Of a DNA stretch of 64,000 nucleotides, positions 1-48,696 are shown piece after piece; the stretch's first letter is position 1; each line of letters starts with the position of its first letter. The position numbers and the translations under genes are program-made. The DNA is from Sutcliffiella horikoshii (GTDB lineage: Bacteria > Bacillota > Bacilli > Bacillales > Bacillaceae_I): the NCBI RefSeq assembly GCF_019931755.1, contig NZ_CP082918.1:2336001-2400000 (forward strand), given 5' to 3'. The notes under the pieces were generated by a model, which did not search any database, was not told the DNA's origin, and saw nothing but the letters and a program-made list of their open reading frames with translations.

Positions 1-2532
1 TTTTTTCGAGAAGGCAAGTGATATCAAACCAAATCTTCTTATAAAGATTTCAATAATCAATAAGAAAAAAGCGATGATGATAAAAGGGAGCCACACCGTC
101 TGAGATTGGTAAACATTTTTATGATAGGGACGGAAGACATCTTTTGGGTCTTCTATCAGCATTCCATTTTGATTGGCTGTTATATTTTCAAGCAACTCCA
201 AATTTACAGGCCTTTGTTCAAATTCTGTGGAAAAAGGGACAACCATTCCGCTTGTAAAGGTTGAGACCGTCTCCCCTTCCTCTTCTTGTGTAATATTGAG
301 GAAGTAAATATCGGGTATGGCTGAAAATTCCACTTCGTACTGGCCAGGTCCCACCATTTTACTTTTAGCGTCTTCGATAATCTGCCCCTTATTGTTTGAT
401 ACAGAGATAGAAACCGGCATTAGTATATCCTCGATTGCTTCCACCTTCACGGAAGCTCTTCCTCCATCAACAGAGGAAGTGATGTCATAAGCACCTTGCT
501 CATAAGATGGCAATGACCATGTTATCATTTCGTTCCAAAAAGAGGTCCATTCTTTCCATGAAGGGAACCCACCACTCCAAGCTCCGGAAACATCGGACGT
601 CCAGGCGATCGTTCTACCAAGGCCGTAATTCATTCGAGCGAGGATTGGGTCCTCTTTTTCACTTGATATGATCTGTTCAGCCCTTGATTTCAGGGTAGTT
701 GCAATATACGTATTTAGAAACGGCGTCCCGCTTTCGAACCTCTTAGACCAATCATATCCTGCATATACAGTAGGTACATGTGGATTGTCTTCTATATATG
801 TTTTGGTAGTAAGGGCCGTCTCCCTTGAGAGAATACTCGGGACGGAGCTTGCCTCATAAACTTCATAAAACCTACCTGTCCCGATTTCTGCAAGTTCCTC
901 TAACAAGGAAGTATCTGCATCTCCACCGATTGCTACTGTGGATAATGTGACATTGTTCGTTAAGCCTTCTTCGATGATTTCTTCATAAGGTCCATCATTG
1001 GATTGTCCATCGGTCAGTAGAATAATATGCTTGCGTTTTAAATCCATCTCATTCAATTGCTCGTAAGCCTGGTTAAGTGCAGGGAATATATCTGTTCCAC
1101 CACCCAATGCAGTTGAACGGATTGTATCTATTACCTCTTCTTTATCCTTGATCGGTTCGGTCTCTACGACTGTCCAAGGTTCGGTATCAAAGGCAATAAA
1201 ACCAAATGTATCCTCTTCTTTTAACAGTTCTACAGAACGAGCGGCAGCCTCTTTCGCTAAATCAAATTTTTCTCCCATCATACTTCCCGAACGGTCCAGT
1301 ACGATGATTAAACCAAGTGATGGGATTTCCTTTTTGCCTTTTACATCCATATCCACCGGAAGTATTTTCTCAATCGGAGTTTGGAAATAACCGCCTAGAC
1401 CATAGGATTCATTACCTCCTGTCATTGTAAAGCCTACACCAAAATCCCTGACTGCGGTTTCAATGAGTTCCATCTGATTACCACTTAAAAGGTGACCAGA
1501 CACATTATGGAAAATAATACTTTCATATGCCAGGAAACCACTAAGTGTCGTCGGCAACAGGCTTGGATGGATACGATCAATCTTCCATCCGCTTGCATCT
1601 AACGCACGGAATACATTATCCCCTTCACCCTCTTGATCGACCATGAGTACTTTAGGTTGACCCGATACTAGTGTTAAGGAGTGAGATATATTGTTTTCCA
1701 CAATTTTATCTGATTTTGGAAAAATTTCTGCTTTAAATGTGTACAATCCAGGATCTGTTAATGGAACGGAATAGGAGTAATTATTCGATCCCTTTGCCAC
1801 TACAATTTCTTCTTTTATGATGGTTTCATTATTTTGAGTTATATGCAGAGTGGCTGTTGTGTCCACATTGGCTTCTAAACCGACCTGAAAAGGAACCGCT
1901 TCCCCTTCAAAGCTTGATTGTGGAGTATGAAAGGATTGAAGTGACACATCTTCCACAAAGGGTGACTGAAAAGCCATTGCATCCATTTCTATATTTCGTC
2001 CTGAATAAAAGGTGGATTGTCTGGCACTGTTCCCGTTTGTTTCTACTCCATCAGTCATCAAAACAATTCTGCCTTTACGATCCTCCGGGATGTAATTTGC
2101 AGCAAATTTCAATCCCTCTTCTAGATTCGTGAATTGAGGACTGTCATTTACAGAAAGCTGTTGAATCGTTTCTTGTTCGTCGGTAAAGGAACGTTCAAGT
2201 TTAGGCTTTTCTGAAAAAGTAACAATGCTATAACTATCCTCTTCTTTCTTTTGCTCGATCGCCTCATTAATGGAGGAAAGGATTTGCCCTTCCATCCTTT
2301 TCACACTGTCGGACTGATCGACAAGAAAAACGGTATGTGTTCCTTTTACAGGGGAAAGAAAAGATGGCATACATAGTCCAAGTATAAGTAGGAAATAGAT
2401 GATGCTTCGCAAGGAGATGATGACATATTCCTTTTTCCGCTTCGTTTTCTTTTTACGCCAGAACAAAACTAGACTGATTAAGACCGGGATAAGAAATAAA
2501 AGCATGAGAGGGTGTTCAATTTGAAATTCCAC
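1..2532 (-). CDS. VWA-domain membrane protein, C-terminus outside window
   Basis: Partial gene; 844 codons are visible and the reading frame runs off the left edge. The GTG start at 2532 has a GGGAGG ribosome site 9 nt upstream and overlaps the previous gene by 17 nt. Two membrane segments lie near residues 8-26 and 40-58. A first VWA domain carries a DQSDS metal site at about residue 72, then comes a GATase-like region, and a second VWA domain has DRSGS at about residue 413. Another membrane segment starts near residue 810. Two MIDAS motifs (DxSxS) suggest metal-dependent protein binding outside the membrane. It is the last visible gene of the MoxR/ABC operon. The precise role is unknown; I infer a partner of the MoxR ATPase. 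Confidence 0.85.
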   Translation of the reverse strand, partial: MEFQIEHPLMLLFLIPVLISLVLFWRKKKTKRKKEYVIISLRSIIYFLLILGLCMPSFLSPVKGTHTVFLVDQSDSVKRMEGQILSSINEAIEQKKEEDSYSIVTFSEKPKLERSFTDEQETIQQLSVNDSPQFTNLEEGLKFAANYIPEDRKGRIVLMTDGVETNGNSARQSTFYSGRNIEMDAMAFQSPFVEDVSLQSFHTPQSSFEGEAVPFQVGLEANVDTTATLHITQNNETIIKEEIVVAKGSNNYSYSVPLTDPGLYTFKAEIFPKSDKIVENNISHSLTLVSGQPKVLMVDQEGEGDNVFRALDASGWKIDRIHPSLLPTTLSGFLAYESIIFHNVSGHLLSGNQMELIETAVRDFGVGFTMTGGNESYGLGGYFQTPIEKILPVDMDVKGKKEIPSLGLIIVLDRSGSMMGEKFDLAKEAAARSVELLKEEDTFGFIAFDTEPWTVVETEPIKDKEEVIDTIRSTALGGGTDIFPALNQAYEQLNEMDLKRKHIILLTDGQSNDGPYEEIIEEGLTNNVTLSTVAIGGDADTSLLEELAEIGTGRFYEVYEASSVPSILSRETALTTKTYIEDNPHVPTVYAGYDWSKRFESGTPFLNTYIATTLKSRAEQIISSEKEDPILARMNYGLGRTIAWTSDVSGAWSGGFPSWKEWTSFWNEMITWSLPSYEQGAYDITSSVDGGRASVKVEAIEDILMPVSISVSNNKGQIIEDAKSKMVGPGQYEVEFSAIPDIYFLNITQEEEGETVSTFTSGMVVPFSTEFEQRPVNLELLENITANQNGMLIEDPKDVFRPYHKNVYQSQTVWLPFIIIAFFLLIIEIFIRRFGLISLAFSKK

Positions 2533-4321
2533 GTCTGTAAACCTCCCATTCTACCAGTAATACGACAAGAGCAAGTAATAAAAATAAATAGGAGATGTTA
2601 ATGCTTGTTGTTGTCTCCTTTTCCTGATCGCCAGAGGAAACTGCCGATATGTTAAAGCTTTCTTCTGTCTTAATCGATTTTTCTGATTCCTCTAACATGA
2701 TGGTAAAAGTCCTGGATTCTTCCGTTTGGTCCATTGTCTCTCTTAGTGTATACAGACCGGGTGTCAGCGGGAGATCCATAGGTTGTTCAAATGTCTCATA
2801 AGAGAAGACAACCTTATCATCCTTATCAAGGATTTCCGCTTTTTTGACATCAGAAGCAGGAAAATAATCCATCGTCTGACCAGGATAGAAATATCCCAAC
2901 ATACCTTTGTTCTGTGTCAATTCCTGAATAGAATGAAACATGAACAATGGGAAACCAGGATGGAGCGGCCAATCACTTGAGCCAAGCTCAAATGTTACGA
3001 CAATAATTGGGTCACCTTCATAGATTCCTGAAAGAATCAGAGGCGTTTCTCCCCTGCTTGCAACTACATCTAATGAGGAAAATTCCTTTGAAGAAAAAGC
3101 CTTTTCCACATACACATTCTCCATTTCCACTGATTGCATTAATGGATCTGCCATACTAGCGGATACCTCACCCGAAAGTACCACTTCATCTTCCCCATCT
3201 TCACCTGAAAGGAATACTAACTTAGGACCAGACGGCCAGTCGCTTCTCTCCACTCCTTTAATGAGGTGAACACCATCGAATTTAATTTCCTCCGCTGAAT
3301 TCGAGGAAAGGTGGATGACATTGGTGCTTGCTATTTCAACAGCCTTCCTGGCAAATGGATGTATGTCCTTATGAACGTAAACTGTAGGGTCCTGTTGCTG
3401 CCCCAGAAAAGCGAATTGTTCATTATCTAACTTATATTGCTTATCTCCACTCACGACAGCTCTATACATTGTCGCAGGTGGCAGTTCTTCAAGATAAATA
3501 GTCTTTACTTTGTTGCCTTCCACTGTCTCGGAAACTTGTTGCAGGTCTTCCTCTTGATCATTATAGATGGATAAGTTAAAGTCCATTGAATCGTTTCCTT
3601 CATTTTTCACAGTAACTACACCAACTACTTGGTTTTCACGCATGGTTACCCCAAAAGTTTCGACTGCCAAGTTTTGGTGGGAATTGCCTATGTTATGTGC
3701 AAAGAAGGTGGTGTTATTATGAAGCTCTAAAGGTGCTTCTTTGGAAAAATTGTCGGTTAAAAGCTGTATATTTCCGTTTTCTTCTCCTAAAAGACTCTTT
3801 GCCATATTGATGGAATCTATCACATTTGCTGAAACGTAAGAAGGACCCAAGTTTTCCACCAGTTCGACTGCTTCTTTAGGTGATTGTGACCTTTCCAATA
3901 GAATCTCAGGCGTTTCCTTGGCCACGATAACAGTCATTTCTTGATGATCAATTTTATCAAGTGTTTGCACCATTTTCTCCTTGGCCAACTCCAGACGAGA
4001 CTTTTCCCCTTCCAGTGCGGTCATGGATGCGGATGTATCCACAATGAAAACGATATGGTCTCCCTCTATTCCTTCCTTCTCAAAGAAGGGCTGAGTCAAA
4101 GTGAAAATAAGAAACAACAGTGCCAATAACTGAAGGTATAGCAGCAGATGGTGCTGCAACTTTCTCCACCAAGCTTGAGCTTCAAATTCGTTCATCCATT
4201 CCTGCCATAACAAAACAGAAGGGATCGCTTTCTTTTCATACTGCTTTCGAAAAAAATACATCAAGATAACTAAAAGTAAAAATGCACTGAACAAAAAATA
4301 TATTGGTGCTGTAAAACCCAT
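2516..4321 (-). CDS. BatA-like VWA-domain membrane protein
   Basis: About 601 residues. The N-terminus has the BatA/aerotolerance-regulator layout: a membrane segment at about residues 5-25, a basic and aromatic stretch, and a second segment at about 60-80. A VWA domain follows with an intact DTSAS metal site near residue 95. A final membrane helix sits about 20 residues before the C-terminus. The start is ambiguous among GTG 4330, ATG 4327 and ATG 4321; AGGTG is best spaced for 4321. It is coupled to the preceding DUF58 gene and overlaps the next VWA gene by 17 nt. Families of this type work with MoxR ATPases; the substrate here is unknown. Confidence 0.85.
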   Translation of the reverse strand: MGFTAPIYFLFSAFLLLVILMYFFRKQYEKKAIPSVLLWQEWMNEFEAQAWWRKLQHHLLLYLQLLALLFLIFTLTQPFFEKEGIEGDHIVFIVDTSASMTALEGEKSRLELAKEKMVQTLDKIDHQEMTVIVAKETPEILLERSQSPKEAVELVENLGPSYVSANVIDSINMAKSLLGEENGNIQLLTDNFSKEAPLELHNNTTFFAHNIGNSHQNLAVETFGVTMRENQVVGVVTVKNEGNDSMDFNLSIYNDQEEDLQQVSETVEGNKVKTIYLEELPPATMYRAVVSGDKQYKLDNEQFAFLGQQQDPTVYVHKDIHPFARKAVEIASTNVIHLSSNSAEEIKFDGVHLIKGVERSDWPSGPKLVFLSGEDGEDEVVLSGEVSASMADPLMQSVEMENVYVEKAFSSKEFSSLDVVASRGETPLILSGIYEGDPIIVVTFELGSSDWPLHPGFPLFMFHSIQELTQNKGMLGYFYPGQTMDYFPASDVKKAEILDKDDKVVFSYETFEQPMDLPLTPGLYTLRETMDQTEESRTFTIMLEESEKSIKTEESFNISAVSSGDQEKETTTSINISYLFLLLALVVLLVEWEVYRRGISN

Positions 4322-4326
4322 TCCCA

Positions 4327-5190
4327 TCACCTAATCCAACCTTTAGAGGTCATCCTTTTGAATAAAATATCTTCCACTTTCTCTCCTGTATGGCACATAA
4401 GGTAGGAGATTCCCCTCTCAAAACAGAACCCCTCGAGCATCTCCATCCTTTGTTTCATCTTTTCTTTATAATTCTTTCTAGTAAATTCAGAAACGGTCAC
4501 GTTCACTTCATGATTGGTTTCACTGTCAATGAGCATAAAGTCGCCATCAAAACTTGGATCTACTTCATCCTCTTCCAAGACTTGCAACAAATAGATTTGC
4601 TGTCGATTAGCTTGAATAATTTTCAATGTGTGGATGACCGAGTCAAGAGGTTCCAATAAGTCACTGATGACAATGGATACACTGCTCTTCCTTTGCACAT
4701 GATTTAAAGCCGCTTCAGAAAATAGCAGGGAGGACTCTTTAGCTTTAATCTCCTCTACATATTGAAGCATCTGATGGAGGTGTCCTTTTCCTTTGCGATA
4801 TAAATAAGGAGCCTGCTCCCCATGGACATCCATAATGGATATACGATCATCCTGACTAAGTCCAATATAGGCAAATGAAGCTGTGAGTGTTTTGGCTAGC
4901 TTCCACTTGGCAGGGGAACTTGCCATGGAATTTGTACAATCCAGATAAATGGTAGCAGATAGCTCTTGTTCATCTAGATACCGTTTAATATAGTGTTTTT
5001 GCGTACGTGCATAGATATTCCAGTCCACTTGCCTGAGGTCGTCACCCTGCTCATACATGCGATAATCAGAGAAATCATGAGATGCTCCGAACCTTGTCGA
5101 CTTTCTTGTTCCTTTATGCCAGCTTCTCTTGAGCTTGCCTGCTTGAAGCGTATGGGCCTGTAGTTGCTTTGTTATCATAGAATTCAACAT
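4327..5190 (-). CDS. DUF58 domain protein
   Basis: 287 residues. The family signature around FSDYRMYEQGDDLRQVDW (about residues 40-58) and the following IYART are clear. A VWA-like fold comes next, with a degenerate metal site (DCTNS, near residue 85). DUF58 proteins are regularly encoded directly after MoxR ATPases, as here: 5 nt separate it from the MoxR gene, and its stop lies against the start of the next VWA gene. No signal peptide or membrane helix is evident, so it is probably cytoplasmic or membrane-associated. The biochemical function is not established in the family. Confidence 0.92.
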   Translation of the reverse strand: MLNSMITKQLQAHTLQAGKLKRSWHKGTRKSTRFGASHDFSDYRMYEQGDDLRQVDWNIYARTQKHYIKRYLDEQELSATIYLDCTNSMASSPAKWKLAKTLTASFAYIGLSQDDRISIMDVHGEQAPYLYRKGKGHLHQMLQYVEEIKAKESSLLFSEAALNHVQRKSSVSIVISDLLEPLDSVIHTLKIIQANRQQIYLLQVLEEDEVDPSFDGDFMLIDSETNHEVNVTVSEFTRKNYKEKMKQRMEMLEGFCFERGISYLMCHTGEKVEDILFKRMTSKGWIR

Positions 5191-5195
5191 AACCG

Positions 5196-6203
5196 CTACC
5201 TGACATTCAATACTTTATCAGTGTACTGTATGGCATCCTCAAGAATTAGATCTTCTTTAATCCCAGAAGCTTCCCCTTCAAAATTCAGGAACAACCGGTG
5301 ACGAAGGACAGGGAAGGCAGCATGTTTAATATCCCCTTTGGAAACATGAAAGCGACCTGAACAAAATGCTCTTGCTTTTGCTACCTTTATTAAACTTTGA
5401 ACTCCACGAGGCCCCACACCGTATCGCACATATTTTTTCACAAGCTCACTGGCATGCTCTTCTTCAGGATGAGTTGCCATGATGAGTTGTACCGTGTAGT
5501 CTAACAATTCCTGTGAAACTAGTATTTCTTTTACTGCCAATTGGATTTTTTGCATTTTCTCTGTATCTAATAGCTTCTGAACATGATAGGATTCTGTTCC
5601 TGTTGTTCTTTTGATAATTTCATATAACTCTTCCTTCTTTGGATAGCCCATGTTAATTTTCAATAGGAAACGGTCCATCTGCGCTTCCGGCAGCGGATAA
5701 GTTCCTTCCATATCAATTGGATTCTGTGTTGCGAGCACAAAGAATGGAGAGGAAACCTTTCTTGTTTCCCCCATGATGGTAACTGTCTTCTCTGCCATCG
5801 CTTCTAAAAGGGAACTTTGTGTTTTTGGTGTTGCACGGTTTATTTCGTCCGCCAAAACAATATTGGAAAAAATAGGACCTTCATGAAACACAAAGGATTG
5901 CTTTCCGTTATCATGTATTTCGATCATTTTTGTACCGGTGATGTCAGATGGCATCAGATCAGGAGTAAACTGGATTCTTGAAAATTCAAAGCTTAAGACT
6001 TCGGATATTGTGCGAATAAGCATGGTCTTCCCCACACCCGGCATCCCTTCGAGTAAGGCATGGCCATCTGACACCATAGCCCAGATCAGTTGTTCAATCA
6101 CTTCCTCCTGTCCAACGATCACCTTTCCGATTTCTTGTTTCACTTCTTGCAATGTATCTTGATAATATTTCAGTTCCTTTTCTTTCTCTTCCAAACTGAT
6201 CAC
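5196..6203 (-). CDS. MoxR-family AAA+ ATPase
   Basis: 335 residues, normal length for MoxR ATPases. Walker A is GMPGVGKT at residues 53-60, Walker B is IVLADE at 115-120 followed by INRATPKTQS, and sensor 1 is the ATQNP motif. The PLPEAQMDRF segment typical of the MoxR clade is present. Such ATPases act as chaperones that remodel or load VWA-domain partners. The start directly abuts the stop of the upstream coiled-coil gene, so translation is probably coupled. Its partners here are presumably the DUF58 protein and the two VWA proteins encoded downstream. Confidence 0.95.
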   Translation of the reverse strand: MISLEEKEKELKYYQDTLQEVKQEIGKVIVGQEEVIEQLIWAMVSDGHALLEGMPGVGKTMLIRTISEVLSFEFSRIQFTPDLMPSDITGTKMIEIHDNGKQSFVFHEGPIFSNIVLADEINRATPKTQSSLLEAMAEKTVTIMGETRKVSSPFFVLATQNPIDMEGTYPLPEAQMDRFLLKINMGYPKKEELYEIIKRTTGTESYHVQKLLDTEKMQKIQLAVKEILVSQELLDYTVQLIMATHPEEEHASELVKKYVRYGVGPRGVQSLIKVAKARAFCSGRFHVSKGDIKHAAFPVLRHRLFLNFEGEASGIKEDLILEDAIQYTDKVLNVR

Positions 6204-7757
6204 TTAATCTGCTCCCTTCGGATCCACTTCACTAAAGTATTGTTTAACGACATTTTCTAACCTTGATGGCAATTGCATTCTATCAAGTGATTCCCTGTAA
6301 GACTTTTCATAAGAAGAGAATACTTCTCCATACGGTCTTGCTTCCCCTCTTAGGGTCGGAGAATCAGGAGCATCTTCGTATTCTGATTGCCCTTCTCCAG
6401 TTGGACCGCCATCCGTTTCATTTTGAACATCACTTTGGATGTTGGAGGGCACCGTAAAGGTTTGCTCCCCTACACCGACACCAGCCCCTAGCCCGTTGCC
6501 ACTGCCTCCTGGACCTTGTCCCTGTCCTTGGCCTTGTCCTTGACCCTGGCCTTGGCCCTGTCCTTGTCCTTGGCCCTGTCCTTGTCCCTGGCCTTGTCCC
6601 TGACCTTGACCTTGTCCCTGGCCCTGGCCCTGCCCTTGATTTTGGTTCTGGGCAGTTTGATTTGCAGAAGAATTGTTAGAATTGGATAAAGTCAGCTTTG
6701 AGGGGTTAAACCCTGCTTGCGACATTTTTCCGTGTTGATTAGAAGCTGCTGCTTGAAGGGCATTTTGTAAAGCTTCCATATCTGAAAGTGCCGAAATGTC
6801 CTGCATTATTTCCTCGAGTTGCTCTAATAATGCTTCCAATTCCTCCTCAGACAATTGCTCCATATCCAATTCCGCCTGGTCTAAAAGGCTTTCCGAAAGT
6901 TCGGACAACTCTTTTTTCTCTTCATCTGATAAGGAACCGATATTTTTCTTCATTTCATTAAGAAGTTTCTCGAGTTCTTCATTTTTTTTATTCAAAGCAA
7001 GGTTCGCCAATGAGTTATCGGGTTGTTCTTTTGCAAGTTCTTTTAAGCTGGCTTCCTTTTCTTGGAGCTCTTTCATTTTTTCAGATAAATTATTTTCTTT
7101 TTTCATTAGTTCTTTCAGGAGCTCATCTGCATCATTCTCATTTTTAAGATCTTTGAGCTCTTCTAACTCTTCCTTAATGCCTTCGTTATCTTTTAAATCC
7201 TCGGCATCTTTTTTTACTTTTTCCAGCGTTTCCTCAATAATTTCTCGTTCCGCCTCTAAAGCCTGTGCCTCTTGCATTTTGTCATTTGGGAACAAAATCA
7301 AGAGTGTGATGGCGCAAGCGGTTAACAAGGTCATAATTAATATTTTGGGGTGGAAATGCTTTAATTTTGCTTCTTTAATATCATTCTCTTTTCTCTTGAG
7401 ATGATCATAAGCCTCTTTACGCTGTAGTTGTGCGACCAAGGAGGTATCGTTGACGTAATCCAGAGACGTTGTTAATCTATCCTCTTCCAGAAACTCATCA
7501 GAGTATTTTGCTGCATCCCATGTTGAAGGCCTATTCCTCCAATAGAGTAGGAATACAGCTAAACAGACGATACCGCCTATCCATAGAGCCTTTTCCATTA
7601 AGTATGGAGTCACGACAATTCTAGCAACGATGAGCACACTTAAGAAGCTGACGCAAAATGCCAAGATGGCAAATTGCGCCTGTTTAGAAATGCGGTGAAA
7701 TCTAAGTTTTCTTCTGATGGAAATGAGAAACCTGACTATTTGATCCTTTTCCTTCAT
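6204..7757 (-). CDS. Membrane protein with coiled coil and Gln-Gly repeat
   Basis: 517 residues, product not assigned to a named family (a DUF4175-like membrane protein is possible). Two membrane helices near residues 28-70 and a third near 140-160 are followed by a long Glu/Lys/Leu-rich coiled coil (about 165-330). Then come an Asn/Gln-rich linker, about 20 Gln-Gly dipeptides (about 373-414) and a Gly-rich stretch. The C-terminal domain of about 75 residues contains Tyr and acidic residues. The layout suggests a membrane anchor with a long extended arm. The gene sits 7 nt after the ABC permease and abuts the MoxR gene, so it is probably a structural component of the same machine. Confidence 0.8.
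   Translation of the reverse strand: MKEKDQIVRFLISIRRKLRFHRISKQAQFAILAFCVSFLSVLIVARIVVTPYLMEKALWIGGIVCLAVFLLYWRNRPSTWDAAKYSDEFLEEDRLTTSLDYVNDTSLVAQLQRKEAYDHLKRKENDIKEAKLKHFHPKILIMTLLTACAITLLILFPNDKMQEAQALEAEREIIEETLEKVKKDAEDLKDNEGIKEELEELKDLKNENDADELLKELMKKENNLSEKMKELQEKEASLKELAKEQPDNSLANLALNKKNEELEKLLNEMKKNIGSLSDEEKKELSELSESLLDQAELDMEQLSEEELEALLEQLEEIMQDISALSDMEALQNALQAAASNQHGKMSQAGFNPSKLTLSNSNNSSANQTAQNQNQGQGQGQGQGQGQGQGQGQGQGQGQGQGQGQGQGQGQGQGQGPGGSGNGLGAGVGVGEQTFTVPSNIQSDVQNETDGGPTGEGQSEYEDAPDSPTLRGEARPYGEVFSSYEKSYRESLDRMQLPSRLENVVKQYFSEVDPKGAD
6514..6640 (-). repeat. Coding repeat, about 20 Gln-Gly units
   Basis: A run of six-base units encoding alternating glutamine and glycine inside the coiled-coil protein gene. 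Both CAA/CAG and several glycine codons are used, so the repeat is conserved at protein level more strictly than at DNA level. Its length could vary between strains. Confidence 0.9.
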
Positions 7758-7764
7758 AGGTCAT

Positions 7765-8610
7765 CTACCCTTTTCGTGATCTCATATTTGGGCGTAACTT
7801 TTTAATACTAAGTAAAATCAAGATGATAGAAATAGTGATATAGGAAATGATCAACCCAACACCGAGGTGCATATCTATTCCTGTCACATTTTTCAATTCC
7901 ATGGCTGCACCAGGCTCAAACAGCGCCAACATTACGCCAAAAGGATTAAACATTGCGATAAAATATGGGAGTGGGTTTGACTGTGGTCCAGCTCCCCCAT
8001 ATTGCGTAAAACTAATCGTGAACATGGTGATGATAGCTGTCCCAGCAGCAAGGAAAAAGGCTACACCGTACGTACAAACCATCGCAACAATCGTTTTACG
8101 AATGAGCGTGGAGAAGAAAACGCCGATACTTCCCAAGGTAGCCATGGAAAGCAAATATACTCCGAATGTCAATAACAGTAGTTTTGGTGAGATTCCCCCA
8201 AATAAAAATACGATGCTATATAACGGCAAGCTTGAAATTACAATTAATAATAAGAATGATAGGGATGACACCAACTTGCTGACAATGATACTTGTGGAAG
8301 ATTGCTGTGTGGTCAAAAGAATGTTCAATGTCTGTTTTTCCCGCTCACTGCTTATGATTCCCGCGGTTAATCCAGGGGTCATAAAGAAAATTAAAGCAAG
8401 CTGCACAAATGCTAAGATCATGAACATGTTTTTACTGTTTTCTGCTCGGAACATGCCCATCGTATTGAATCTTGTTTCCATGTAAATATAAAACAAAGCG
8501 ATTAAGCCTAGCACACCCAGGTAGAATAATATTCCCAGGAAGCTTTTGAAACTCCTGAAGCGTAACTTGAACTCTTTATTTAACATGGGGTTGATTAGTT
8601 GAGCTTTCAT
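7765..8610 (-). CDS. ABC-2 type transporter permease
   Basis: 281 residues with about six hydrophobic segments in the ABC-2 arrangement. The ISSEREKQTLNILLTT segment after the second helix is characteristic of ABC-2/NatB-like permeases. The start codon overlaps the stop of the ATP-binding gene by one base (TAATG), so the two are translationally coupled. Together they form an exporter of unknown cargo. Location in one operon with MoxR and VWA genes suggests that transport is linked to those proteins. Confidence 0.9.
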   Translation of the reverse strand: MKAQLINPMLNKEFKLRFRSFKSFLGILFYLGVLGLIALFYIYMETRFNTMGMFRAENSKNMFMILAFVQLALIFFMTPGLTAGIISSEREKQTLNILLTTQQSSTSIIVSKLVSSLSFLLLIVISSLPLYSIVFLFGGISPKLLLLTFGVYLLSMATLGSIGVFFSTLIRKTIVAMVCTYGVAFFLAAGTAIITMFTISFTQYGGAGPQSNPLPYFIAMFNPFGVMLALFEPGAAMELKNVTGIDMHLGVGLIISYITISIILILLSIKKLRPNMRSRKG

Positions 8611-9542
8611 TATTCCACACCCTTTGTAATTTCTAAGAAGATATCTTCCAGGTTAGATTCTTCTTGACTAAGACTTAGAATCATCACACCTGAATCTAAT
8701 GCTTTTTTAAGCAATTCAACTTGTTCTTCGTCGGTCCCTTCAAACGAGAAGGAAAGCAGATTTGAACGTTGCTCACTTAGTTGAATGTTGGAAACACTAG
8801 GTATATCCTCGAAAAATCTGATTGCTTTATCAATATCTTTAAGAATGAGCACTTTCAATACTTTATTGGCTTGCAACTGTTGGTGGATTTCTTCTACTCG
8901 TCCTGTAGCAACAAGCTTCCCACCATTGATAACGCCAATTTCATCACACATTTCCGCAAGTTCTGGCAGGATATGAGAAGAAATCATGATTGTTTTGCCC
9001 ATGCTTTTCAATTCCCTCAATATTTCCCTCATTTCAATTCTTGCCCTTGGATCCAACCCTGATGCGGGTTCATCCAAAATCAATACTTCAGGGTCATGTA
9101 TTAGTGCTCTTGCTAGACATAATCGTTGCTTCATTCCCCTTGATAATACATCTACATAAGCATCTTTCTTATCCGTCAGATTGACAAGCTCGAGAAGCTG
9201 AGGAATCAGCTTCTGCCTTTCCTCCAAAGGGATGCCATAGCTTGCTCCATAGAAGTCAAGATATTCATCGGTTTTGAACTGATCATAAACACCAAAGAAA
9301 TCAGGCATATATCCAATATATTTCCGAACCATTTTTGGATTTTTCGTAACATCATATCCGTTTACAAAAGCAGTCCCAGATGTAGGCGCAAGAAGCGTAG
9401 AGAGTATGGAAAATGTTGTGGATTTCCCCGCTCCATTGTGGCCGACAAATCCAAATACTGTACCTTTTTCAACCTTTAAGTTTAATGAATCCAACGCTGT
9501 AAATTTACCATATTTTTTTGTAAGATTAATGGTCTCTATCAT
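8610..9542 (-). CDS. ABC transporter ATP-binding protein
   Basis: 310 residues. Walker A GHNGAGKST is at residues 34-42, the signature is LSRGMKQR, and Walker B is VLILDEPASGLD. Length and C-terminal extension fit the ABC-2 (CcmA/NatA-like) group. The start overlaps the upstream 813-residue gene by 4 nt and its stop overlaps the permease start, a tight operon arrangement. It should power the adjacent permease; cargo is not deducible from sequence. Confidence 0.95.
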   Translation of the reverse strand: MIETINLTKKYGKFTALDSLNLKVEKGTVFGFVGHNGAGKSTTFSILSTLLAPTSGTAFVNGYDVTKNPKMVRKYIGYMPDFFGVYDQFKTDEYLDFYGASYGIPLEERQKLIPQLLELVNLTDKKDAYVDVLSRGMKQRLCLARALIHDPEVLILDEPASGLDPRARIEMREILRELKSMGKTIMISSHILPELAEMCDEIGVINGGKLVATGRVEEIHQQLQANKVLKVLILKDIDKAIRFFEDIPSVSNIQLSEQRSNLLSFSFEGTDEEQVELLKKALDSGVMILSLSQEESNLEDIFLEITKGVE

Positions 9543-11980
9543 TCTTTTAACGCTCCTTCTACCTGTAGCCCCGGTACTTGTATATCTCTATCAAAATTAT
9601 TTGGTACCTTTAAACGAACCGTAATGCTTCCCTGTTCATTGAAATAATCAGAAAGATTCCCCTCTAAAGTTACAGAAGCTTTATTTTCAAGTGCTTCTGC
9701 TTCACCCTTCTTATGATTAACGATAAAATACTCCACACTTCCATCTCTAGAGCGTAGTTTAATTTTCACTTCTTTCATTTCATCTTTCTCAATATCCACC
9801 ATATCCGGAAGGCTGTAGGTAAAGTCATACGTCCCTCCACCCAGGTATACATATGGCTCTCCAAAATCCAGACCGTTATGGTGTACCATTCCTGTTTCAC
9901 CTTCTGTTACTGCAAGGTTAGGAGACAAATGTTCTTCTGTAAAGCTAAAGCTTCCTCCACCTGAATTAGTGATTGTGACTGGTAATACAACAAGATGAGA
10001 GGCATTCGATTTTCCGGATTTTCCATCTACCTTCGTCTCCATCACCCCATCTGTTACATAACCCACCAAAATAGGTTGAGAGGCTATAGAGAAGATATCT
10101 TTTCTGTTTACAAGTAAATCCAGCATTTGAAACTTTTTATAGTCTTCAAGTTCATCTTTTTCAATTTGATTAGCGCCTGGTCCTTGATTATAATAACTTT
10201 GGAATTTTGGAAATGCCTTAGTAGCAGAAGTGCTGCTTGGTGCCGTCAACGCATTGGCGATGTTGCCTCCAGACACCTCATACTCTAGGTTCACTGATTC
10301 CCCTGCTTTAATATCTCCAAGTGCTTCTGAGTCGCGACCTGATAGTAGAAAAGCGTCCTTTAACTCATACTGCATCTGATTGGATATTGTCCCTTGTATT
10401 TTTCCGTCTTTTATAGAGAGTGCATGATCTATTTTCCCTAAAGGCAAGGCATTTACGTTACCAATACTTGTACGCGTTGACCAATACTCCACATCATTGA
10501 ATGTAATCTCTGTTCCTTTAGATAGAGAACTGACATAAGCATAGTTCTTCATCAGTTCGAAATTTTCATTATAACCGTATGTCATTGGGAAAAGCGTAGT
10601 ATTTTCTCCCGTTTCCATCTTATAATTGCCGCCACTATTTGTAAGGATACTCGCTACCCCATAGCCACTGGCAGTTTCCGTCTCATTGTCCAAGAGGAGT
10701 ATACTTGCTTCATTCACTTGTGTTCCTGATATTCTGTCTTTCGCACCAATACCGAAAACTGCAATACTTGTAAAGATGGCTACAGCTGGAATGATCCACC
10801 ATGCCTGTTCACGTTTGTCCGTTCTCTTGAGAATGAAATACAAAACAGGAATTACTAAGATTAAATATATCGCAAAGGCACCTATTAAAAGCGGCACCGA
10901 AACGATAGAACCCGGAAACGCTTCGCCAATTGGACTCAATTGGTGACTTAGCTCTTCCATGACAGGCATTTTATAGTAGTTGGGGCTCTTTGATGTAACC
11001 TTTTGAAGTACACTGCCCCACCATGTGTTTATTTCACTCCATTCTCCAAAAAGAGGGGAAGCCAAGTTACTTGCGATTTGGGTCACTGTCCCAGTCCCTG
11101 CGTTCATCATAAGTACAATCGGCGTATCTCCATCCTTCGTCAATACAGTTGCATCTTCTTTTAACAGATTACCAGTGAATATAGGAAGGTCTGGAAAACT
11201 ACTTTCCTTATTCAACTTTAAAAGGGACGTTTCATTAGTCGGATCTAGGAGTTGAAAGTCCTGCAGTTCTCCTAAATCTTGACTTAGGCCAACCTTTGTA
11301 TCAAACATCAAAGAGCCACCGTTATTTACCCAATCCTTAATAGCCTGTTGCTGTTGAGCTGTAAGTGTGGCCAACGGAAAATCGTGAACCAATAGAATAT
11401 CAAACATTTCCAGTCCATATGATTCATTGGGAATGTTTTCACTGCCGATGTTTAGCAACTCCATACTTTCGTTTTGATACTTTACTAGTTTTAAGAAGTT
11501 TACAGCATCATGTTTATTGCTGAGTACTCCTAGTACAACTCTGTTATCCCCGATATACCTTGGTTGAGCATTTGCATTTCCTTTTAGCTTTACTTCTTTT
11601 CCTTTTTCTACTCCACCTTCATAAAAACTGACAAAATCATTTCTTGTGCCTGAGTAGTTATATGACATATGATCGGAAGTGCCTTTTACTGCTAGTTCTA
11701 ACGTTTTGGAACCTCCTGCTTCTAACTCAACCGGGATGACATAACTACCGGACATATTATATGTAGGGCTGGAAAATACGACGATATCACCTTTAATCGC
11801 ATCGCCTTTGTTCACCACTTCAATCCTGATTGGATGACCCTTGCCCATCTGTACTTTGTTATCAACACCGAATTCCACTTTCACTTCCAAGTTTGTTTCC
11901 GCGCTTGAAAATGACGGATATAAAAATAAACCGATAACCATCAACAACAAACATTTTTTAACTAACAACCATACCTTCAC
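9539..11980 (-). CDS. Exported membrane protein, first gene of the MoxR/ABC operon
   Basis: 813 residues with an N-terminal signal peptide (hydrophobic core, cleavage near FSSAE at about 27). A beta-rich extracytoplasmic region is followed by a GATase-like segment (FDILLVHDFP ... WVNNGGSLMF, about 195-225). Two membrane helices lie around 355-410, and a further long extracytoplasmic region ends the protein. No catalytic motif is recognised. It opens the operon behind an ECF-type promoter, and a purine-rich AAAGGTGAAGGT precedes the ATG. I infer an envelope component working with the ABC pair, possibly as a sensor or periplasm-side adaptor. Confidence 0.85.
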   Translation of the reverse strand: MKVWLLVKKCLLLMVIGLFLYPSFSSAETNLEVKVEFGVDNKVQMGKGHPIRIEVVNKGDAIKGDIVVFSSPTYNMSGSYVIPVELEAGGSKTLELAVKGTSDHMSYNYSGTRNDFVSFYEGGVEKGKEVKLKGNANAQPRYIGDNRVVLGVLSNKHDAVNFLKLVKYQNESMELLNIGSENIPNESYGLEMFDILLVHDFPLATLTAQQQQAIKDWVNNGGSLMFDTKVGLSQDLGELQDFQLLDPTNETSLLKLNKESSFPDLPIFTGNLLKEDATVLTKDGDTPIVLMMNAGTGTVTQIASNLASPLFGEWSEINTWWGSVLQKVTSKSPNYYKMPVMEELSHQLSPIGEAFPGSIVSVPLLIGAFAIYLILVIPVLYFILKRTDKREQAWWIIPAVAIFTSIAVFGIGAKDRISGTQVNEASILLLDNETETASGYGVASILTNSGGNYKMETGENTTLFPMTYGYNENFELMKNYAYVSSLSKGTEITFNDVEYWSTRTSIGNVNALPLGKIDHALSIKDGKIQGTISNQMQYELKDAFLLSGRDSEALGDIKAGESVNLEYEVSGGNIANALTAPSSTSATKAFPKFQSYYNQGPGANQIEKDELEDYKKFQMLDLLVNRKDIFSIASQPILVGYVTDGVMETKVDGKSGKSNASHLVVLPVTITNSGGGSFSFTEEHLSPNLAVTEGETGMVHHNGLDFGEPYVYLGGGTYDFTYSLPDMVDIEKDEMKEVKIKLRSRDGSVEYFIVNHKKGEAEALENKASVTLEGNLSDYFNEQGSITVRLKVPNNFDRDIQVPGLQVEGALKE

Positions 11981-12039
11981 CTTTTTTTCCCCCTAAATAT
12001 AACAATCTCTCTTTTCTATATTTAAATAACTATCTCTTA

Positions 12040-12066
12040 GACGTACCCTTATAGGAAAAAGTTTCA
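12040..12066 (-). promoter_or_regulatory. ECF-sigma-like promoter (TGAAAC-17-CGTC)
   Basis: On the minus strand TGAAAC (12066-12061) is followed after exactly 17 bp by CGTC (12043-12040). This matches the extracytoplasmic-function consensus in Bacillus (sigma M/W/X type, TGAAAC with CGTC or CGTA). It lies 60 bp upstream of the operon's first ATG and just after the terminator of the germination operon, which is where a promoter is needed. Confidence 0.7.
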
Positions 12067-12073
12067 AATTCAA

Positions 12074-12103
12074 TAAAAAAAAGAAGGGTTTTTTTCCCTT
12101 CTT
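12074..12103 (-). terminator. Terminator of the germination operon
   Basis: An 8-bp perfect stem (AAGAAGGG/CCCTTCTT) with a 7-nt loop is followed on the minus strand by seven T residues. It lies directly after the gerC stop codon. Confidence 0.9.
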
Positions 12104-13228
12104 TTAATCCATCACGCCGGTACGCAAGATTTCCACGTCAATTTTCACTTTAAACTCTGCGTTCTGATAATGATCTTTCCATTCCTCTTTGCTGAATGTA
12201 TCATACCCTACTTTTGCACGATAATAGTTCCCAAATCCAACTGGGTCTGCGCCCATTTCTTTGCTTTTATTAAGCACCTGTATTAATTGCCGTTCCATTT
12301 CTTTTCCTATTGCCTCTTCCATCCTTTTTATAGCTTCTGGATTACCCAAATCATAGTTTTCTGATATCTCTTGCATTCGGGATTTCACTTTAATTTTTAT
12401 TGAAAATGATGGGGTTTGTTTGTCAAGCAACTTTATGTCAGTATCGCTTCTAAGATGATCAAGTGAAATATATACACTTTCCTTTTGTTTATTGTTACTA
12501 GTAAGAATGTATTCATTAACTTTTTCCTTAGGAAGAATTATTTCCGTACTCCCAGCCTCAAAGGGATCCAACAGCAGCTTTAAATAGAAAGAATCACTAC
12601 TATCTAACTGACCTACTGCCCTATCTTCTTGAAATAGTGAAATACCTTCGATTATAATTGTTCCGTCTTTAAAGTTTAATAAAGGGAGAACCGGATCGCG
12701 TCCTTCACTGTAATAACACTGCATAAATTCATGCAAAGTTGGCGAAAGCAGGGAATCCGCTTCTACGTTTTGAGTAATCAAGTCATATAGAAAAGTCCCC
12801 GCATTTGTTACATCTTCTGATTCTTGAGAAAGTTGAAGAAGGTCATATGCCTGTGGTTTACTTACCGCAAGATACGACATTGTACCTACTTCCGAATCTC
12901 GAGATAAGGTATCTATAATAGAAATTATTCCACTTTTTGCTAACTCCTCTCCATAAATCGCTACTCTCAATTGTCCAGATACTAGTCTTCTACTAGAAGC
13001 AAGGTTTTCTTTTTGGCGCACACCTTTACTTGTGTGCGCCAGGGATGTGACCATTTTCGTATTATTTGGATGCAATGGATCGAATTCATAATAGATGATT
13101 GAACCTTTTAGCATCCCATCCTGATTATCATAACCGACAGCTGTAATTAATCCGAGTTCCTCTAATGGTTTTTGGTTGACACACCCATTTAAGATGACAA
13201 GTAAACAAATCATTAATATCTTTTTCAT
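12104..13228 (-). CDS. gerC: Ger(x)C spore germination lipoprotein
   Basis: 374 residues from the ATG at 13228, giving MKKILMICLLVILNGC with a lipobox Cys at 16. This start overlaps the gerB stop by 4 nt (ATGA), with GGTGGGG upstream; a longer reading from 13267 lacks a signal at its end. The family-typical ELGLITAVGYD segment follows the lipobox. The protein is the C subunit of a GerA-type germinant receptor, anchored to the outer face of the spore inner membrane. The paralogue group (GerA, GerB, GerK and so on) and thus the germinant cannot be told from sequence alone. Confidence 0.93.
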   Translation of the reverse strand: MKKILMICLLVILNGCVNQKPLEELGLITAVGYDNQDGMLKGSIIYYEFDPLHPNNTKMVTSLAHTSKGVRQKENLASSRRLVSGQLRVAIYGEELAKSGIISIIDTLSRDSEVGTMSYLAVSKPQAYDLLQLSQESEDVTNAGTFLYDLITQNVEADSLLSPTLHEFMQCYYSEGRDPVLPLLNFKDGTIIIEGISLFQEDRAVGQLDSSDSFYLKLLLDPFEAGSTEIILPKEKVNEYILTSNNKQKESVYISLDHLRSDTDIKLLDKQTPSFSIKIKVKSRMQEISENYDLGNPEAIKRMEEAIGKEMERQLIQVLNKSKEMGADPVGFGNYYRAKVGYDTFSKEEWKDHYQNAEFKVKIDVEILRTGVMD

Positions 13229-14334
13229 CTTGTCTGTACCCCACCTTTCATTTTTTTCCTTATCCATACAATAACTGCAAGGGGAATGGGGTAGACGAAA
13301 ATAGAATAAAATCCAAACAATCCCACAATATCAACAAATTCATTGATGTTGGCACGTTTTTGAAAAAAAATGGAACAGATTAAGACTAATATACTGGTTA
13401 TAATGACAAGGCTTTTCTGCCTTAGGTTGAATATTCGCTTTAAACCTTTAGTAGCAGCCCAAAGCATAAACAATGTATTAGGTAGAATGATCACAAGCCA
13501 TAAGGACACTGCAAGAAATTCAAATCTCTCCAGATTTGGAAACTGTACTATTTTAAACATCGACAGTGTTGCCCATATCGTTTTTTCGAGTTGCTCACCG
13601 CTATAGTATCCAACTGCAACAAAGGTTACGGCAAAAATTAGAGCGAACGTGAAAAAAACTCCGATTTGAGCGTATATATGCACTCTATGTTTGTCACGAA
13701 TATACGGGTAAACGAATAACAACATCTCCAACCCTAAAACAGTGAAAGAAGTCTTGTATGCTCCCAATAGCAATTCTTTTGGAGAAGCTTCCATGATTGG
13801 AAAAAAATTTGTCCAATCAATGTACCGTATGGGAACTACAAGCATGAAAATAAGCCAAATAGTTAAAAAGAACCCTAAAAAACTTACACCAACTATTGTC
13901 TTTATCCCTCCATATACACCATAAATAGAAATCAGGAGTAGAATTAAGACGATCGCCCACGTCTCTAAATCTGGAAAAATCCAAGCCTGCACAATTTCCG
14001 TATAACCTAAAAGGATCGCCATCAGTCCTGCTAGAAGATAGAGGACTAAGACTAAATTAATTATGTTCCCTATCCACTTACCGAATAATAACTTATGTAT
14101 TTGAAACAAGTCTTTGTTTTCAAATGTTTTGAGAATATAGCACATGGCATATACAACTACTGCCATCCCAATATAACTAATGATGATGGAAATCCATGCA
14201 TCCTGGCCAGCTTCAAGGAAAATGATACGTTGTATACCAGCAATTCCAACACCCGTTTGGTTTGTGTGGACAATAAAGAACACCAAATATGCAGATAGTA
14301 CGACAGAATTCTTCTTATTAGCAGTATTCATCAT
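13225..14334 (-). CDS. gerB: GerAB-type germination permease
   Basis: 369 residues with about ten hydrophobic segments, of the amino acid permease-like endospore germination family. It is the B subunit of a GerA-type receptor and is thought to hold the germinant-binding site in this family. It lies 9 nt after gerA and overlaps gerC by 4 nt. A GGTGAAG ribosome site precedes two consecutive ATG codons. It is integral to the spore inner membrane. Confidence 0.93.
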   Translation of the reverse strand: MMNTANKKNSVVLSAYLVFFIVHTNQTGVGIAGIQRIIFLEAGQDAWISIIISYIGMAVVVYAMCYILKTFENKDLFQIHKLLFGKWIGNIINLVLVLYLLAGLMAILLGYTEIVQAWIFPDLETWAIVLILLLISIYGVYGGIKTIVGVSFLGFFLTIWLIFMLVVPIRYIDWTNFFPIMEASPKELLLGAYKTSFTVLGLEMLLFVYPYIRDKHRVHIYAQIGVFFTFALIFAVTFVAVGYYSGEQLEKTIWATLSMFKIVQFPNLERFEFLAVSLWLVIILPNTLFMLWAATKGLKRIFNLRQKSLVIITSILVLICSIFFQKRANINEFVDIVGLFGFYSIFVYPIPLAVIVWIRKKMKGGVQTR

Positions 14335-14343
14335 TTCTTCACC

Positions 14344-15816
14344 TTATTCATCTATGTCCTGAGATCTTTGATGACGAAAAGTAAAAAATCCTTTCTTATC
14401 CGGATTGGTCCTTAATAGATGGATTGGCATCCGAAAAATGGTATTTAATGCATGCTCTTTGTCAAATGGGTAAATAGGTTTAAGGTAAGGTACGCCTATG
14501 CTTGTCAAGCGAATTAAGTGAATGAGTAAAAAGCATAATCCAAGACTAATCCCAATTCCTCCCCATATACCTGCTAGAATTAATATCGGAAATCTTATCA
14601 CCCTCACTGCAGTCCCCATTAAATAACTTGGTGCAGTAAAGGAACCCAGAGCGCTTAGAGCTACAACGATAATGAGAATATTACTAGTAAATCCTGCTTC
14701 TACTGCCGCTTGTCCTAATACAATACCTCCAACTATACCCATTGTTTGCCCCACTTTTGTAGGTAGCCTTGCTCCTGCTTCTCTAAGCAATTCAATCATT
14801 ATTTCTAATAATAAAGCTTCAAAAATAGGAGTAAATGGTACTTTTGATCTTGATTCTCCGAGTGAAACCAACAAGGTAGACGGAATCATTTCATAGTGAT
14901 ATGTAATGATGGCAACATATGCTGGAGTCAGAATAACAGAAAGGAACATGGTCAAATAACGTAAGAACCTGATAAAACTTCCCATGTTCCATCGCATATA
15001 AACATCTTCTGTAGATTCAAAGAAATTAAAAAGTGAAGCAGGACCAAGCAGAACCATGGGACTTCTGTCCACAAATACTGCAACCATTCCTCTTTCTACG
15101 CTGTATGTCACCCTATCAGGAAGTTCTGTTTGAACATACTGTGGAAAGATGGAATAGCTGTTGTCCTCTATTAATTGAGCCAACACAGAAGTATCAAGAA
15201 TATCATTTACTTGTAACGCGTTTATTTGATCCCTTATCGATTGGACTATTTCCTCGTCTGCCATCCCTTTTAAGTAAACTATTCTTATTTCTGTCGCGTT
15301 CTTTTTTCCTACAGACATTTTTTCTGTACAAAGGTCTTCAGAAATTATATTTTGTCTAATAATACTAATATTTGTACTTAAGGATTCAGTAAAGGAAATC
15401 TTTGGGCCAAAAACAAGCGATTCTGTTTCTGCTTTTTCTAACCCTCTTTCCACTTTTTTTACTAAGTTGATTAATAATCCTTTCTCAGCCTTAGTGGTAA
15501 ATAAAAATACATTTCCATCCAATAACTTATTGATTATTTCATCCATATCATCTGTCAGCTTGGCTAAGGTTGTTGGCAATTGATAAATTAATTCTTGAAA
15601 GTCTACAGAACTATCTTTAGTTTTCTCTATAATAGAAGGTAATATTGTTTGATTCAGCACAGTAAGGTCAACAAGATTTTTTAAATAAATGAAAAGGATA
15701 GATGAATCATTTCTTTTCATTTCATAGAAAAAAAGATCAGGACTATCATGAAAGGTCTTTTTGAAATGCTCTTGAAGATCGCATATATCGTATGTTGAAA
15801 GATTCTTTTTCTCCAT
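14344..15816 (-). CDS. gerA: GerAA-type spore germination protein
   Basis: 490 residues from ATG 15816, which has GAAGGGTGG upstream; an in-frame start 48 nt further out looks less likely. The long hydrophilic N-terminal domain contains VFVDRSPMVLLGPASLFNFF before a C-terminal block of about five membrane helices, as in the GerA/SpoVAF family. It is the A subunit of the receptor formed with the next two genes. The expected sigma-G promoter was searched for upstream but nothing convincing was found. Confidence 0.93.
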   Translation of the reverse strand: MEKKNLSTYDICDLQEHFKKTFHDSPDLFFYEMKRNDSSILFIYLKNLVDLTVLNQTILPSIIEKTKDSSVDFQELIYQLPTTLAKLTDDMDEIINKLLDGNVFLFTTKAEKGLLINLVKKVERGLEKAETESLVFGPKISFTESLSTNISIIRQNIISEDLCTEKMSVGKKNATEIRIVYLKGMADEEIVQSIRDQINALQVNDILDTSVLAQLIEDNSYSIFPQYVQTELPDRVTYSVERGMVAVFVDRSPMVLLGPASLFNFFESTEDVYMRWNMGSFIRFLRYLTMFLSVILTPAYVAIITYHYEMIPSTLLVSLGESRSKVPFTPIFEALLLEIMIELLREAGARLPTKVGQTMGIVGGIVLGQAAVEAGFTSNILIIVVALSALGSFTAPSYLMGTAVRVIRFPILILAGIWGGIGISLGLCFLLIHLIRLTSIGVPYLKPIYPFDKEHALNTIFRMPIHLLRTNPDKKGFFTFRHQRSQDIDE

Positions 15817-15918
15817 ATGGACCACCCTTCCATTATTCCCATATATAAGTATACTTACCAACATGCGAGATTTTATGAAAATCTCTTTAAGACATTTCTG
15901 GAATACTGGTTTAAATTC

Positions 15919-48234: not shown

Positions 48235-48303
48235 AGCTTATCCCTCCTTTACCTATTTATATGAAAGGATAAAAAAAATAAAACAGGTACAAAGTTTGAA
48301 ACC

Positions 48304-48333
48304 TTGACTATAATAGAAGAAATATTGTATATT
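48304..48333 (+). promoter_or_regulatory. Sigma-A promoter of cspD
   Basis: TTGACT (48304-48309), 18 bp, then TATATT (48328-48333). The predicted transcript carries a leader of about 90 nt before the cold-shock gene, as is common for csp mRNAs. Confidence 0.65.
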
Positions 48334-48429
48334 GAAATTGTCATTAAACCGCTTTCTTTTTTAGGAAATTGGTTGTGATAATACAATTTCACGGCACATT
48401 GTGCGCTATTTTTAGGAGGAAAAAGAACA

Positions 48430-48630
48430 ATGCAAAACGGTAAAGTAAAATGGTTCAACAACGAAAAAGGTTTTGGATTTATTGAAGTAGAAGGTGGAGA
48501 AGACGTATTCGTACATTTCTCTGCAATCACTGGCGACGGTTTCAAATCTTTAGAAGAAGGCCAAGAAGTTTCTTTCGAAATCGTTGAAGGAAACCGCGGA
48601 CCACAAGCTGCTAACGTTACAAAACTTTAA
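48430..48630 (+). CDS. cspD: Cold-shock protein
   Basis: 66 residues, complete cold-shock domain. RNP1 is KGFGFIEV and RNP2 is VFVHFSAI. It binds single-stranded RNA and DNA as a chaperone for transcription and translation. AGGAGGAAAAAG precedes the ATG. The choice of cspD rather than cspB is by gene neighbourhood and is not certain. Confidence 0.95.
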
Positions 48631-48653
48631 TTTATAATTGTAAAATATATATA

Positions 48654-48696
48654 AAAGCGAGAGACCATCATTTGTTTGATGGTCTCTTTCGTTTTA
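48654..48696 (+). terminator. Terminator of the cold-shock gene
   Basis: GAGACCATCA and TGATGGTCTC form a perfect 10-bp stem, extended by AAAGCGA, followed by TTTCGTTTT. Confidence 0.9.

Follow-up and report, generated by a model that had tools for sequence, protein, structure and literature searches.

An eight-gene operon linking a GldG-type ABC-2 unit to a MoxR/DUF58/VWA module: a candidate envelope-stress machine of Bacillota

The window analysed here is a stretch of 64,000 nucleotides (nt) from Sutcliffiella horikoshii (NCBI RefSeq assembly GCF_019931755.1, contig NZ_CP082918.1, positions 2,336,001 to 2,400,000), and our subject is the set of eight genes at its start, all of which lie on the minus strand. 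From first to last they are EXP (exported protein), ABCA (ABC ATPase), ABCP (ABC-2 permease), CCQG (coiled-coil Gln-Gly protein), MOXR (MoxR ATPase), DUF58, BATA and VWA2. EXP and ABCA overlap by 4 nt, ABCA and ABCP by 1, DUF58 and BATA by 4 and BATA and VWA2 by 17; ABCP and CCQG are separated by 7 nt, the largest gap, CCQG and MOXR by 0 and MOXR and DUF58 by 5. The original prediction, made from the sequence without database searches, had the eight genes overlapping or within 8 nt of each other, and this holds at every junction. Locus L010, which stops inside BATA, has identical junction values. The spacing suggests that the eight genes share one transcript. VWA2 is cut by the window edge and runs 234 bp further, to G000:C1:2335767, giving a full protein of 921 residues.

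EXP (9539–11980, minus strand; 813 residues, GTG start) has a signal sequence, a beta-rich N-terminal domain, a GATase1/GIFT-like region at about residues 146–333, two transmembrane (TM) helices at about 359–413 and a beta-rich C-terminal part, and hydropathy places most of it outside the membrane. The predicted fold is GIFT-like, as in IFT52 and GldG. In Pfam the window protein matched GATase1-like families below cut-off only; in the EXP family, profile matches at E 0.01 or better were to DUF7408 in 23 of 27 members and to DUF4350 in four. GATase1-type catalysis usually needs a catalytic cysteine, and 73 of 80 relatives have no cysteine past residue 40; the modelled domain would thus appear to be a binding domain. 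The closest named relatives are from S. horikoshii KcN35-3 (92%), CH28_1T (90%) and three unclassified Bacillus strains (89–90%), and the protein in the S. horikoshii DSM 8719 record is at 73%; among the matches listed (54 proteins) relatives are named hypothetical, uncharacterized, DUF4350 or DUF7408. Sequence searches with EXP, ABCP and DUF58 against solved structures gave no match.

ABCA (8610–9542, minus; 310 residues) is a DrrA/GldA-like ABC ATPase with Walker A, signature and Walker B motifs all present in 80 of 80 relatives, and ABCP (7765–8610, minus; 281 residues) is a weakly GldF-like ABC-2 permease with six TM segments. CCQG (6204–7757, minus; 517 residues) has three N-terminal TM segments, a coiled-coil-like part, a Gln-Gly linker and a conserved C-terminal segment. 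It has no Pfam match above cut-off; we read its sub-threshold hits, to keratin head, CFAP143, TrAA12 and others, as noise from low-complexity or coiled-coil sequence. Proteins of the DUF4175/TIGR02302 type, from alphaproteobacteria, likewise combine TM segments with a Gln/Gly-rich part. We rejected membership of either family: DUF4175 was found neither for the first CCQG member nor among the 25 commonest of 44 matched families (26 members, E up to 0.1), and the window protein has no match to TIGR02302 (E up to 0.01).

MOXR (5196–6203, minus; 335 residues, no TM segment) is a MoxR AAA+ ATPase of the AAA_3 family, in which Walker A, Walker B and TQNP are intact in 77 of 77 relatives. It exceeds the bpMoxR cut-off (55.7 versus 27), and the genome's three other strong AAA_3 genes fall outside the operon clade. 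The DUF58 protein (4327–5190, minus; 287 residues, no TM segment) carries a VWA-like D-x-[TS]-x-S motif, which 76 of 77 relatives have within their first 140 residues. BATA (2516–4330, minus; 604 residues, three TM segments) joins a BatA N-terminal domain to a VWA domain, and VWA2 (1–2532 and beyond the window, minus; three TM segments) has two VWA domains, of which the second sits within a GATase1-like fold, and a Lys-rich tail predicted to be cytosolic; the pTM of its structure model is only 0.47. Pfam thus bears out the labels first given to these genes for the ATPase, the permease, the AAA_3 MoxR, DUF58, BatA plus VWA and the VWA/GATase1-like part, with the qualification that VWA2 is incomplete in the window. 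The idea that MoxR remodels its VWA partners directly fared less well. The VWA domains of BATA and VWA2 are predicted to lie outside the membrane, where a cytosolic MoxR could hardly act on them directly, and DUF58 is the sole VWA-like partner predicted to be cytosolic.

The original prediction looked to relatives for the same gene order, and this order is widely kept. The named set comprises 80 loci retained out of 172 relatives; 77 of them have the complete set in order and three have the first three genes only. In the family and order, 45 of 50 loci carry the eight genes in order (VWA2 of L084 being in two open reading frames, ORFs) and five carry EXP-ABCA-ABCP only. A further 40 loci of the phylum, from outside the order, were sorted into classes by hand: 20 have the eight genes in order (some genes cut or in two ORFs), one has seven, five are cut by the end of a contig or region, one breaks after CCQG, two have EXP-ABCA-ABCP alone and 11 have a sigma-factor context described below. 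The order conserved across these sets rules out chance co-location. Flanking genes differ among the 40 phylum loci, and the unit is therefore taken to be the eight genes; no conserved cargo, client or enzyme gene was seen beside the operon in the phylum loci examined. One relative (L093; G053:C6:66891-72980) has, ahead of its eight-gene operon, an additional pair of diverged EXP and permease genes, and one TGA lies inside the match to this second EXP.

Counted by genome, EXP occurs in 17 of 18 genomes of the family sample, the remaining genome being 80% complete, in 46 of 299 genomes (25 of 116 genera) of the order sample and, as a profile match, in 65 of 398 genomes of the phylum sample. The VWA2 profile finds a match in 70 of the 299 order genomes. 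In 42 the match is strong, with E below 1e-200, and every one of these genomes also has EXP; in the remainder E is no better than 1e-18, and most of these weaker matches span a VWA domain. Four genomes (G065, G116, G207 and G232) have EXP without a strong VWA2. The ABC pair and the MoxR module, which could have proved unlinked in most relatives, accordingly occur together in 42 of the 46 EXP genomes of the order sample.

A site of the type recognized by extracytoplasmic-function (ECF) sigma factors precedes EXP (12040–12065, minus), with GAAAC at 12065–12061, 17 nt starting TTTTT and CGTC at 12043–12040, 60–85 nt ahead of the GTG start. It can be written GAAACTTTTT-N12-CGTC or TTGAAACTTTTT-N12-CGTC. 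Statements on published work here refer to the parts of each paper available to us; the -35 half fits the published SigW consensus TGAAACXTTT (PMC6713349). The pattern GAAACTTTTTN7-13CGTC has three sites in the genome, one of them before EXP, and the reversed-pattern control has one. The other two lie at G000:C1:806980-807004 (L101) and 2816321-2816345 (L103); one is just ahead of an apparent small membrane protein gene and the other is ahead of no clear gene.

A strict form, GAAAC-N15-18-CGTC within 150 nt of EXP, is present in 23 of 52 EXP upstream regions, 13 in the genus of the window and ten outside it, many of them from close relatives; 200 shuffles gave 0.045 on average and never more than one. 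It precedes none of 214 other mechanically called ORFs of 200 residues or more and none of the 346 other genes that the operon profiles picked out (again ORFs of at least 200 residues, with a few stray ABC ATPases among them). The latter count agrees with the proposal of a single unit, within which promoters of other types may nevertheless occur. In the named set the strict form precedes 20 of 80 EXP genes (shuffles 0.09) and a relaxed form, shaped after some sequences had been viewed and counted over related loci that are not independent, 48 of 80 (shuffles 0.4). Three-gene forms (L070, L096 and L168) retain the strict site, which therefore goes with the exporter. This pattern suggests that the operon is under ECF control, and since the promoter is of ECF type an envelope-stress role is likely, in keeping with the envelope function first proposed.

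Different ECF sigma factors prefer CGTC or CGTA. The genome has 34 Sigma70_r4_2 matches, not all of them ECF sigma factors, of which 20 were examined; the region upstream of L104 has GAAAC..CGTA, and L106, L112 and L114 have looser upstream sites ending in CGTC, counted without a shuffle control. L104, L113 and L123 are tentatively labelled SigW-, SigM- and SigX-like after Bacillus subtilis sequences.

In the 11 phylum loci set apart above (L225, L230, L232, L234, L235, L236, L241, L243, L246, L247 and L257) an ECF sigma gene is followed by a gene for a protein of 442–513 residues and then by EXP-ABCA-ABCP, with no MoxR module. Junctions from the sigma gene to EXP range from a 59 nt overlap to a 29 nt gap, and in L235 the ABCP ORF overlaps ABCA by 376 nt. 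Pfam, run on three of the pairs, recognizes sigma-70 regions and PD40 propeller repeats, and the other eight pairs were assigned with profiles built from these loci. The propeller protein is probably an anti-sigma factor of an unusual kind; the available part of a paper on ECF/anti-sigma pairs makes no mention of propeller anti-sigmas (PMC7406223). GT[AT]AC-N14-18-CGTC lies upstream of nine of the 11 sigma genes (shuffles 0.05) and GNAAC sites occur in two of these loci, and no promoter site was found between the propeller and EXP genes in any of the 11. On the EXP tree the sigma context is explained by a single change, the tree being a quick one of 77 rows after removal of 14 near-duplicates, built without a mixture model and carrying a long-branch warning. 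At the level of gene context this arrangement is a second, independent tie of the exporter unit to ECF control. A full VWA2 is absent from all 18 tested genomes that have EXP-ABC without a linked MoxR module (G423 has one partial VWA match), in a search in which three positive controls matched.

These exporter units bear on an unlikely alternative, that the operon holds two separate stress functions behind one promoter, EXP-ABCA-ABCP being an exporter or detoxifier and MoxR/DUF58/BatA a chaperone set for unrelated clients. Besides the 11 loci with sigma genes and the missing VWA2, the three-gene unit stands alone in three of 80 named, five of 50 family or order and two of 40 phylum loci, and MoxR/DUF58/VWA sets elsewhere have been described, in the available text, without mention of an ABC pair (PMC5700661). 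It is harder to see on that explanation why the order should be fixed across distant Bacillota and why 42 of 42 genomes with a strong VWA2 in the order sample should have EXP. The variants that follow also weigh against it.

Of the 398 genomes of the phylum sample, 51 have VWA2 at E below 1e-40, and 44 of the 51 also match EXP. In the order sample the MoxR module is never seen without the exporter, a rule that was dropped at phylum scale because the other seven genomes have no EXP match. With a wider profile an EXP-like gene was recognized beside the MoxR module in three of the seven (L262, at 14 bits, L264 and L266), and none was found in the stretches L260, L261, L263 and L265. Seventeen of these VWA2 loci, selected because their EXP match was weak or lacking, were examined as variants. 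An ABC ATPase is present in one (L267), and nine (L264, L266, L268, L269, L270, L271, L273, L275 and L276) have an EXP-like gene, a gene for a small protein of four to seven TM segments and then the MoxR module, while the stretch examined contains no ABC ATPase. Between the small protein and MoxR lies a CCQG match in five of the nine (one at 17 bits only) and an unmatched gene of 434–579 residues with one to three TM segments in four. Taken as a family, the nine small proteins align with ABCP (hhalign probability 87.5, E 3.6e-6 for one profile), compared with probabilities of only 0.1–0.4 per cent for the CCQG, EXP and BATA profiles. No MoxR gene lies in the stretch for three of the 17 (L260, L263 and L272, the last two of which end at a contig edge).

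The nine loci thus keep EXP-like and permease-like genes ahead of a MoxR module, which is not expected of two unrelated functions. The permease outlasts the ATPase beside MoxR, and the ATPase–permease pair outlasts MoxR beside the ECF sigma gene; EXP and the permease are the common core. It is possible, though doubtful, that this lasting core of a GIFT protein and an ABC-2 permease belongs to a two-engine machine, driven by the ABC ATPase alone in the ECF-sigma lineages, by ATPase and MoxR together in the eight-gene operon or by MoxR alone. Were this true, a MoxR chaperone could replace the ATPase of an ABC-type permease.

We give a probability of about 0.5 to the reading that the operon is an envelope-stress-induced machine in which MoxR and DUF58 service a GldG-type permease core. 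An ECF sigma factor would switch the operon on under envelope stress. EXP and the permease would form the membrane core as a pair resembling GldG and GldF, with large domains outside the cytoplasm; the GldA/DrrA-like ATPase would drive this core, which would move or pull an envelope component, whether lipid, glycan or surface protein. Cytosolic MoxR, with DUF58 as a VWA-like adaptor, would assemble, reset or unjam the core. BATA, VWA2 and CCQG may relay this action outwards, the VWA domains serving as metal-dependent clamps near the membrane and the coiled coil of CCQG, with its flexible (Q/S)G linker, reaching into the wall as a tether. We infer the topology, the single complex and the direction of transport. 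The machine is probably an old one devoted to care of the envelope, because the eight genes recur in order in very distant Bacillota, often behind a promoter of envelope-stress type.

Several observations weigh against this reading. Most of the order lacks the operon, as the 46 EXP genomes among 299 indicate, some relatives have gaps of 100–900 nt between operon genes, and in L223, L248 and L251 ORFs on the opposite strand lie between them. In the named set 60 of 80 loci are without the strict promoter form and 32 of 80 without the relaxed one, and neither form occurs in Lysinibacillus, Neobacillus or Ornithinibacillus, each represented by three loci. The 27 loci of eight-gene type outside the order have the strict form in none and the relaxed form in five (shuffles 0.1); GNAAC-N14-18-CGTC, a pattern also shaped after viewing some sequences, is found in eight (shuffles 0.17) and GT[AT]AC sites in none of the 27. 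The topology comes from a hydropathy plot and the positive-inside rule alone. MoxR is not essential for the exporter everywhere, because EXP-ABC persists without a full VWA2 in 18 of 18 genomes. The proposal of one coupled machine accordingly stands in a weakened form, as the MoxR module is not obligate for the exporter, nor the ABC ATPase for the MoxR module, in all lineages.

The properties of EXP also suit a different role for the ABC-2 unit, as a transmitter of signal or force in the manner of FtsEX: use of ATP inside the cell would alter the outer domains of EXP, and these in turn would regulate enzymes of the wall or proteins of the surface; the MoxR set would be the switch. EXP is large, predicted to be mostly outside the membrane, and its GATase1-like fold without the usual cysteine has the look of a binding domain; the 40 phylum loci, moreover, have no cargo gene conserved beside the operon. 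However, ABC-2 permeases with DrrA/GldA-like ATPases are generally taken to be exporters, and Pfam recognized no wall enzyme among the operon proteins, so we regard a transmitter as rather unlikely. Less probable again, indeed a distant prospect, is that the operon products mature or secure a single, particular complex of the membrane or surface, in the way of NorQ/NorD and RavA/ViaA with theirs, and that the ABC unit exports a part of it. MoxR/VWA pairs have been reported as maturation factors (PMC9976466; PMC3893208), but the loci examined show neither a conserved enzyme gene nor a conserved client gene within the operon or next to it.

A terminator-like stem-loop (12079–12105, minus) at the end of the upstream gene set is taken as the upstream border of the operon. 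It is a consensus match only and, with nine such matches in all versus 11.5 expected in shuffles, is alone no sign of function. Directly upstream (12104–15864, minus) is a three-gene set that, by eye from the translations, resembles a gerA-type spore germinant receptor, and the downstream neighbour of the operon is a convergent MFS-like gene. Sigma-70-like sites are fewer than chance (28 versus 36.1 in shuffles). Elsewhere in the window (48283–48690, plus) there is a match to the cspA thermoregulator RNA (85 bits versus a gathering score of 78).

MoxR/DUF58/VWA sets, chaperone modules that occur widely, have no generally agreed substrate. Operons of the Bat or cmdA–cmdD type have been described in Bacteroides, Borrelia and Rhizobium (RL3499–RL3502), the last with envelope defects and cell-shape changes, and no clear function has been associated with such sets (PMC5700661). 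RL3499 and RL3500 are required for normal growth on complex medium (PMC5118466), and a role in envelope integrity or stress has been reported for MoxR-DUF58-BatA relatives (PMC5700661; PMC11834572). The present operon resembles these in its adjacent MoxR, DUF58 and BatA/VWA genes, with the order kept in 77 of 80 loci and AAA+ motifs intact, and differs, as far as the available descriptions go, in having an ABC-2 unit and a GIFT-like protein at its head, an additional coiled-coil Gln-Gly protein and, in many cases, an ECF-type promoter.

The GIFT domain is named for GldG and IFT52 (PMC10191852; PMC7226087). Likeness to the Gld system lies in the GldA- and GldF-like matches and the GIFT-type domain of the partner protein EXP; neither equivalog cut-off is reached (ABCA against GldA, 255.8 bits versus 402.6; ABCP against GldF, 34.6 versus 288.5), and here the unit comes with a MoxR module. 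MoxR-vWA ternary conflict systems share MoxR with VWA partners (PMC7159879). Their propeller, STAND or FtsH partners were not found by Pfam among the eight proteins, VMAP not having been searched for; the VWA proteins thus lack the fused propeller of the MoxR-vWA-beta-propeller ternary system, and the terms DUF58, BatA and ABC transporter have no occurrences in the available text of that paper (PMC7159879).

Closest in outline is the archaeal arCOG01314 system of Makarova, Galperin and Koonin (2015; PMC5898192), in which a DUF4350/GldG-like protein, MoxR and a secreted vWA protein are predicted to form a secretion or membrane-remodelling complex. Both encode an anchored extracellular DUF4350/GldG-like protein with MoxR and VWA genes, here recognized by profiles, GIFT-like fold and gene order. 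In contrast to the present ABC pair, no ABC ATPase or permease is named for the archaeal system in the available text, which names an ABC transporter for another system and has no occurrence of DUF58, no coiled-coil Gln-Gly protein and no mention of ECF control (PMC5898192).

No description of the eight-gene set was found in the literature searched, which lacked most subscription journals. What was offered as an unknown system is thus better described as an operon that, from its gene content, appears to join two known themes, the Bat/cmd operons and the archaeal DUF4350-MoxR-vWA system, in a widespread and apparently undescribed combination. Gene order over distant Bacillota ties the MoxR set to a definite membrane target, the GldG-type ABC unit, and the promoter ties it to ECF-sigma control, which makes the question of what MoxR acts on directly testable in a relative of Bacillus that is harmless and can be cultivated. 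GldG-type transporters and the archaeal DUF4350-MoxR-vWA system may then unite as one family of machines.

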